Positions 15,366 through 57,443 of a stretch of DNA of 64,000 nucleotides are shown here, piece after piece (the first letter of the stretch is position 1; each line of letters opens with the position of its first letter). The position numbers and the translations under genes were made by a program. Source of the DNA: Armatimonas rosea (GTDB lineage Bacteria > Armatimonadota > Armatimonadia > Armatimonadales > Armatimonadaceae); assembly GCF_014202505.1 (NCBI RefSeq), contig NZ_JACHGW010000001.1, forward strand, positions 1,612,001 to 1,676,000, given 5' to 3'. The notes beneath the pieces were generated by a model. The model saw only the letters and a list, made by a program, of their open reading frames with translations. It was not told the origin of the DNA and made no database searches.

Positions 15366-15506
15366 CGCCCCGGTTGGAGCGGGGCGTCAACGAGCATCGC
15401 AAGCTCTGCTGCAAAGGCCTTCGGCCATAAAGAAGCGAGGAGGCTCTCTTATGGGCGAAGCCCTTCCCAGCCGTAGGCTCGTTGACGCCCCGCTCTCACC
15501 GGGGCG
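15366..15506. repeat. REPIN: two inverted REP elements (family A)
   Basis: A forward REP (15366-15429) has a head hairpin CGCCCC...GGGGCG, a linker containing GTCAACGAGC, and the tail palindrome AAGGCCTTCGGCCATA. An inverted copy (15450-15506) repeats tail, linker and head in reverse order. Both closely match the two REPs that flank the RAYT gene at 22541-23178. Confidence 0.9.
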
Positions 15507-22540: not shown

Positions 22541-22601
22541 CGTCCCCCCGATCAGAACGGGGGGGCTAGAGAGCCTGCGGCTGGGAAGGCCTTCGGCCAT
22601 A
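22541..22601 (+). repeat. REP element (family A) left of the RAYT gene
   Basis: A head hairpin (CCCCCCG, 7-nt loop, CGGGGGG) is followed by a GCCTGCGGCT linker and the tail GGGAAGGCCTTCGGCCATA (22583-22601). The 19-nt tail is repeated exactly, in inverse orientation, at 23115-23133 on the other side of the transposase gene. Confidence 0.9.
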
Positions 22602-22611
22602 AAATTTTTGC

Positions 22612-23157
22612 ATGGTTTTATCAGATTTTGGGGTGCTGAGCCGTTATAGGGACGTGGAATCTACTCGTCGAAATCATACGGAAATTGCCCTGCACATTGT
22701 CTGGACAACTTGGAAACGAATGCCTCTGCTGGCAGATGAGTCTTTGGAGCGCTGTGTCTGGCGAACGGTTCAAGCTGAAGCGGAGAAGTGCAAGTGTACG
22801 GTTCTCGCCATTGGAGGAATGCCGGATCATGTCCACCTTGTCCTGATTCAGCCTCCGACCATTACTCTGGCAAAACTACTCAACCAGGTCAAAGGTGTCT
22901 CTTCCTCGGTGGCACGCGAACATTTGGGGAGTGAGCAGTTCTTCCGTTGGGCCAATGGCTATGCCGCATTCTCTCTGAGCCGCCCGCACTGTAAAGAGGT
23001 GGTCGCCTATGTGCTTCGCCAAAAAGAACACCATGCAGATCAGAACCTCTGGCAAGACTGGGAGTGGACCCCACCCATGTACACCCCAAATACCCCCTCC
23101 CCCATGGCCGATTCTATGGCCGAAGGCCTTCCCAGCGGAGCCTGCGACGCTCGTTGA
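22612..23157 (+). CDS. REP-associated tyrosine transposase (RAYT, Y1/IS200-like)
   Basis: This 181-residue HUH-superfamily single-strand transposase has H73-V-H75 in MPDHVHLVL and a catalytic tyrosine Y133 in AYVLRQKEHH, the RAYT pattern Y-x3-Q-x2-HH. RAYTs cut and mobilise REP hairpins and usually exist as single, non-mobile copies flanked by REPs. That is exactly the arrangement here. The C-terminal 13 or so residues and the stop codon are encoded inside the right-hand REP. A TAAAAT lies 6 nt before the ATG, partly formed by the end of the left REP. Confidence 0.9.
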   Translation: MVLSDFGVLSRYRDVESTRRNHTEIALHIVWTTWKRMPLLADESLERCVWRTVQAEAEKCKCTVLAIGGMPDHVHLVLIQPPTITLAKLLNQVKGVSSSVAREHLGSEQFFRWANGYAAFSLSRPHCKEVVAYVLRQKEHHADQNLWQDWEWTPPMYTPNTPSPMADSMAEGLPSGACDAR

Positions 23158-23178
23158 CGCCCCGCTCTAACCGGGGCG
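23115..23178 (-). repeat. REP element (family A, inverted) right of the RAYT gene
   Basis: Tail TATGGCCGAAGGCCTTCCC, a linker with GCTCGTTGAC, and head CGCCCC...GGGGCG in inverse order. It matches the REP at 15366-15429 almost base for base and overlaps the 3' end of the transposase gene. Confidence 0.9.
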
Positions 23179-29842: not shown

Positions 29843-29877
29843 GGTGGATGTGGTGCAAGCCCGGATGGAAATCATCC

Positions 29878-29979
29878 GGCTATGGGGCGCGTTCGCGCCG
29901 CCTCCTCGTTCCTCGTCGGTAAAATTTTGAGCGAAGCGAACGGCCGAAGGCCCCATAGCCCCACGTTCACCGTGCGGGA
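29878..29979. repeat. Palindromic element at the 5' end of the fusion sulfatase gene
   Basis: A 10-bp inverted repeat (GGCTATGGGG at 29878, CCCCATAGCC at 29951) encloses GGCGCGTTCGCGCC and GGCCGAAGGCC. The adjoining 23 nt (29957-29979) recur with two mismatches at 33778-33800, also at a sulfatase 5' end. Confidence 0.75.
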
Positions 29980-56825: not shown

Positions 56826-56891
56826 CGCCCCCGTTGGAGGGGGGCGTCTTGCAGTCCTAGTGCCTCGGACACAAAGGGCGCAAGCGCCCAT
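56826..56891 (+). repeat. REP element, family A variant
   Basis: The head CGCCCCCGTTGGAGGGGGG is followed by GCGTC, a linker, and the tail AAAGGGCGCAAGCGCCCAT. It fills the gap between the CocE-type gene and a small membrane-protein gene. A partial second head lies at 56813-56825. Confidence 0.75.
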
Positions 56892-56898
56892 CCCGAGT

Positions 56899-57311: not shown

Positions 57312-57443
57312 CCCGCCCGTTGGAGGGACGGGACTGAAGAGCCTGCGGCTACAAAGGGCGAGCCGCCCATACCAAATTTATGGCCGTAGGCCTTCGTGTC
57401 GGAGCCTGCGACGACAGCAAGACGCCCCCCTCCAACGGGGGCG
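57312..57443. repeat. REPIN: two inverted REP elements (family A)
   Basis: A forward REP (57312-57371) has head CCCGCCCGTTGGAGGGACGG and a tail ending CCGCCCATA. An inverted REP (57379-57443) has tail TATGGCCGTAGGCC and head CGCCCCCCTCCAACGGGGGCG. Linkers contain AGCCTGCG as in the RAYT-flanking copies. Confidence 0.85.

Follow-up and report, generated by a model that had tools for sequence, protein, structure and literature searches.

A transposase gene of TnpA-Y1 subclass 1.2 type between inverted REP-like units, and dispersed inverted pairs of such units in the genome of Armatimonas rosea

The window analysed here, a 64,000-nt stretch of the Armatimonas rosea genome, carries a compact cassette in which a transposase gene lies between two REP-like units of inverse orientation. 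Loci that the genome has in common with named records point to kinship with the Armatimonadaceae. Its parts are as follows, with scores in bits from R1, the covariance model of the unit.

22541-23178, no strand assigned: unit-gene-unit cassette, 638 bp, missing at the orthologous intergenic site in the same-genus genome G001
22544-22601, plus strand: left REP-like unit, 60.2 bits, three hairpins in the single-strand fold
22612-23157, plus strand: Y1/HUH transposase gene, 181 amino acids, Pfam Y1_Tnp E = 2e-19, start codon uncertain
23115-23178, minus strand: right REP-like unit, 89.2 bits, exact 19-nt tail, inverted relative to the left unit

A sequence-only reading of the window had described a single HUH/Y1 transposase, and both the Pfam match and an alignment bear this out. 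The HUH motif is H73-V-H75 (22828-22836) and the catalytic tyrosine is Y133 (23008-23010); both histidines and the tyrosine are invariant across 34 relatives, and the tyrosine motif reads YVLRQKEHH. The inverted unit reported on either side, with an exact 19-nt tail, is also there: GGGAAGGCCTTCGGCCATA has exact copies at 22583-22601 (plus) and 23115-23133 (minus), and with up to three mismatches it matches the window five times, against 0.04 expected from shuffles. As had been claimed, gene and element are physically merged, the right unit encoding the last residues of the transposase and its TGA stop (23155-23157). The left unit is composed of a head (CCCCCC..GGGGGG), a linker (GCTAGAG), a middle hairpin (AGCC-TGC-GGCT) and a tail (GGGAA-GGCC-TTC-GGCC-ATA). 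Since its head (CCCCCCGATCAGAACGGGGGGG) is unlike that of the right unit, the two heads being of different types, the cassette is not a clean pair. No terminator-type T run is found at the cassette. The Rfam search of the window matched no known RNA family, the plasmid search gave no match, and the phage search gave one weak match only.

The enzyme had been taken for a RAYT, and in the strict sense this part of the reading has to be given up. The window protein scores 68.7 bits with the NCBIfam IS200/IS605 model, above its cut-off of 55, and 35.8 bits with the RAYT model, below its cut-off of 80. The NP(L/V)(R/K)xG motif (Y---NP) is absent after the tyrosine, and the protein instead carries the signature of subclass 1.2, i.e. 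Y---Q--HH with DH[IV]H and W. In a tree of 67 Y1 proteins it belongs to a group of 56 (support 99/90), of which 53 have Y---Q--HH, and this group is separate from both the Y---Q IS200 proteins and the Y---NP RAYTs (100/98). A canonical class 2 RAYT-REP system would share the layout seen here, with a low-copy gene between inverted REPs and dispersed pairs; motif, profile and tree contradict it, the units lack a GTAG foot, and we regard it as scarcely credible. Motif and tree identify the enzyme as class 1 and IS200-like, of the TnpA-Y1 subclass 1.2 type. By sequence, the closest solved structures are IS200/IS605 transposases. They are also the best matches by E-value to an AlphaFold model, to which E. 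coli TnpA-REP (4er8) fits with lower rmsd; the model is of a monomer and is therefore blind to cis and trans active sites.

A survey that classified these proteins scored REPs as absent from subclass 1.2 (Quentin 2018, PMC6006769). The subclass was found mainly in Cyanobacteria and Bacteroidetes, and the automatic REP search of that survey required GTAG or GTGG and began from TnpA-REP genomes. The window protein agrees with the subclass in its DHVH, W and Y---Q--HH residues and its short length. What departs from that description is the presence of inverted, dispersed repeats next to such genes, both in Armatimonadota and in several other phyla.

The repeat is real, as had been proposed, and its plan can be refined from head, linker and tail to a unit of some 57-65 nt that comprises three hairpins, at head, middle and tail, the left head of the cassette differing from the right. 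In the alignment of 39 genomic copies, hairpin pairing is kept in 97.6% of the cells over 15 pairs, and falls to 39-47% when the partners are shifted by 1-3 columns. Cells in which both partners have changed in a compensated manner number 69, compared with 24.9 +/- 3.7 in shuffles. The hairpins thus covary. Three types of unit can be told apart: A (linker AACG), C (TTGC and variants) and D (CTGGAGAGC). Two unit classes are apparent, in which AACG goes with GGG/GCA and TTGC with ACA/ACG. As to a possible guide/cleavage code, changes in the linker go together with changes in the bases that precede the tail, though as two lineages and not as demonstrable base pairing.

No GTAG or GTGG foot is present in the unit, the middle hairpin being preceded by AACG or TTGC-type linkers. 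At about 60 nt, with three hairpins, the unit differs in this respect from the 20-40-nt single GTAG hairpin of RAYT systems. The head hairpin does carry CGTC at its 3' edge, and together with the paired organisation this recalls the CGTC-tagged REPs (Di Nocera 2013, PMC3733652). Those repeats, however, have an unpaired CGTC on an 8-9-bp stem that starts with AT pairs, and are without a linked transposase. Here the CG is paired inside the head stem and the stem fits no CGTC family, so this family was rejected.

Further units reported from sequence at 15366, 56826 and 57312 proved to be a pair, a single unit and a pair, respectively, by R1 score.

15366-15429, plus strand: left arm of a REPIN-like element, A type, 87.3 bits
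15450-15506, minus strand: right arm of the same element, 76.1 bits
56826-56892, plus strand: single unit, C type, 59.3 bits
57312-57371, plus strand: left arm of the REPIN-like element at 57312-57443, D type, 38.6 bits
57379-57443, minus strand: right arm of the element at 57312-57443, C type, 79.5 bits

The element at 15366-15506 is a complete inverted pair of 141 nt that folds as one long hairpin (z = -10.3), and single paired elements in general fold in this way, with z of about -8 to -10. The unit at 56826-56892 ends just past the central spacer and has no partner arm; it is likely to be a decayed pair.

The repeats are not confined to the window. A count over the whole genome, which the sequence-only reading had proposed, gave at least 150 R1 units in the 6.3-Mb genome, dispersed over it as REPIN-like inverted pairs, this figure being a floor set by the 150 candidates scored, and 71 in the same-genus genome. 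A further 39 genomes from the phylum gave none, although related genes are present in the majority of them. The number of units is far beyond chance. The best 150 units give 50 pairs, and in all 50 the heads point outward and the tails inward, with spacers of 5-10 or 15-21 nt except in two overlapping pairs. A permissive search at 99 loci of the same genome returned 200 matches, almost all paired, and the 88 complete pairs are 118-159 bp long (median 133 bp). Inverted pairs of about 133 bp are therefore the dominant, REPIN-like form, with roughly a hundred on this chromosome. Among the 49 typed pairs, 22 are A-A, 22 are C-C and five are mixed. In 40 of the 49, against 24 expected, one arm has A and the other G immediately before AAGG, implying that the arms regularly differ in flavour.

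Several smaller features of these elements were observed. The spacers form two size classes about 11 nt apart, and an additional small hairpin, CCGAGTTTACTCGG, is present in many of the long class. Just beyond 32-39% of element ends, against a background of 8%, stand half-head sequences (GATCGCCCCCGTT and its complement), for instance at L190, L258 and L264, as if elements had entered the loops of older head hairpins. At one site, a C-type element stands beside half of a D-type head.

The genome holds seven Y1 genes, and different ones are accompanied by different repeats. The window gene, present in a single copy, is bordered by an A-type unit on the right and by a D-like unit on the left; the gene at L032 has C-type units on both flanks and that at L035 a D-type unit on its right. 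The AACG and TTGC unit classes correspond to the units beside two different transposase genes, the window gene and that of L032. A further paralogue, L034, has an unrelated unit on its flanks, for which the genome contains 35 matches, several of them as inverted pairs. There are, accordingly, several gene-repeat sets in this genome, and because some elements mix unit types (the five mixed pairs above), the matching of gene and repeat is not strict. With the best paralogue of the window gene only 66% identical to it, these genes conform to the low copy number and low identity between copies described for subclass 1.2.

Other Y1 genes and repeats of the same genome were also noted. The window contains, at 29860-29978, a second and unrelated inverted-repeat element with GGCTATGGGGCCTTCGGCC. 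A sequence of this kind also flanks the Y1 gene at L037 (C1:923756), which has lost its middle portion and resembles a pseudogene. The Y1 gene at L031 (C1:1548188) is bordered on both sides by inverted hairpins of a further kind, with GGGGATTGAAAGCCCC.

Much of this organisation is shared with the RAYT/TnpA-REP systems and their REPINs or REPtrons (Nunvar 2010, PMC2817692; Bertels and Rainey 2011, PMC3116915). In both, inverted REPs flank the gene, the repeats occur mainly as inverted doublets that fold as a hairpin, each gene has its own repeat type, and the gene is of low copy number and diverging. The difference in the enzyme lies in its class, which is class 1 (Y---Q--HH) here and class 2 (Y---NP) there. 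An undescribed RAYT-REPIN system had been suggested for this lineage. We found no paper describing such a system there, which supports the suggestion in this respect; the name RAYT does not fit the enzyme in the strict sense.

Presence and absence could be compared between the two genomes available for the genus. Both genes flanking the cassette have matches on G001:C73, at 78-81% identity and only 27 nt apart, and the gap contains a lone head hairpin. The cassette is thus polymorphic between the two genomes; since the G001 site retains one head hairpin, gain here cannot be told from loss in G001. Only three of 20 element loci in G001 clearly share their position with an element here, of a different type, and most of the sampled positions are without a counterpart among the element loci here. 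One G001 element, for example, lies beside the enolase gene and is absent here. The comparison revealed no excision or insertion event directly. D-type units make up the majority of the copies seen in G001.

An orthologous site without the cassette would also be expected of an ordinary IS200/IS605 insertion sequence accompanied by MITEs, with the cassette as the autonomous element and the pairs as its internally deleted copies. The pairs do have the ends of the cassette, and the protein is of class 1 and above the cut-off of the IS200/IS605 model. The likeness to IS608 and ISDra2 extends to the Y---Q active site and to hairpins at the ends. Nevertheless, we consider this account unlikely. IS200 copies are about 99% identical within genomes (Quentin 2018, PMC6006769), whereas here the gene is single, its nearest paralogue is as distant as stated above, and the several near-identical full copies per genome typical of IS200/IS605 are absent. 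No TnpB was noted adjoining the gene. The ends are true inverted repeats of three hairpins, in contrast to elements such as IS608, whose left end differs from the right. Paired non-autonomous elements, moreover, form a large population here. The protein, in addition, stands apart from the IS200 proteins in the tree. A REPtron-like locus remains, in our view, the better description.

To evaluate how widely such genes are enclosed by repeats, we compared the upstream and downstream flanks of 100 non-redundant related loci from many phyla, the threshold being the 99th percentile of mismatched flank pairs. Flanking inverted repeats exceeded it in 73 of the 100, a proportion that is not a subclass-wide rate because the loci were selected for resemblance to the window protein, three of them encoding proteins of other classes. 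For 77 other ORFs from the same loci the figure was 3.9% (Fisher p = 7e-23).

These data bear directly on the possibility that the repeats serve the host as regulatory hairpins, ending transcription or stabilising mRNA, and that the transposase simply came to lie between two of them. Some four fifths of the elements are indeed located between predicted ORFs, many of these convergent or in the same direction, and the hairpin folds are very stable. A chance landing, however, sits poorly with the excess of flanking repeats over the control ORFs and with different paralogues having different matching repeats. The same holds for the element positions in G001 that have no counterpart here and for the missing T run at the cassette. 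We judge this explanation highly improbable.

The repeats of the related loci are not of one kind. The three-hairpin plan recurs in several other Armatimonadota units with different sequences. A close genome with many copies of the transposase but no such repeats had been named as evidence that would speak against the system. The related genome G014 does have a repeat: the unit that surrounds its Y1 gene differs in sequence from the R1 unit and has 63 matches there, many of them paired. In relatives from Planctomycetota, Verrucomicrobiota and Acidobacteriota, GTAG precedes the hairpin of the unit. A first GTAG pattern of 25 nt was too rigid (three matches). A 24-nt GTAG hairpin pattern gave 12 to 72 matches in seven genomes and 0-4 in controls; in an eighth genome, G048, it gave six matches against eight in the control. 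These GTAG genomes may also hold class 2 RAYTs, and in them it is the copies beside the gene that link the repeat to subclass 1.2. Most of the other genomes tested contain dispersed repeats of the corresponding kind.

Taken together, we consider it probable that the cassette is a REPtron-like locus run by an IS200-like HUH/Y1 enzyme of TnpA-Y1 subclass 1.2, and not by a canonical RAYT. By analogy with IS608 and TnpA-REP, the enzyme would most likely recognise the three-hairpin unit in its single-stranded state, as may arise on the lagging strand, which would couple its action to replication. Cleavage adjacent to the unit would then be carried out by Tyr133, with the metal held by H73, H75 and Gln137. 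The paired form, two inverted units of about 133 bp in all with a short spacer, would be copied or moved to new intergenic sites, and the transposase gene itself would remain at low copy number. In this manner the window enzyme may have dispersed the repeats that match its own flanks.

Somewhat less firmly, we lean towards a broader proposal for the whole Y---Q--HH lineage (subclass 1.2), which spans many phyla and for which no partner has so far been known. It may be a second, separate branch of repeat-spreading enzymes, every gene being accompanied by a dispersed inverted hairpin repeat of its own. In Armatimonadota these repeats would consist of multi-hairpin units lacking GTAG, and in Planctomycetota, Verrucomicrobiota and Acidobacteriota of units that carry it. 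If this is true, the REPtron way of life would not be a property of class 2 alone.

The finding provides a likely substrate and role for an orphan branch of HUH enzymes, and ties the abundant intergenic hairpins of a little-studied phylum to such enzymes. Several gene-repeat pairs of different specificity in one genome offer a natural comparison, by which the coevolution of enzyme and repeat, as well as the need for a GTAG guide, become directly testable.
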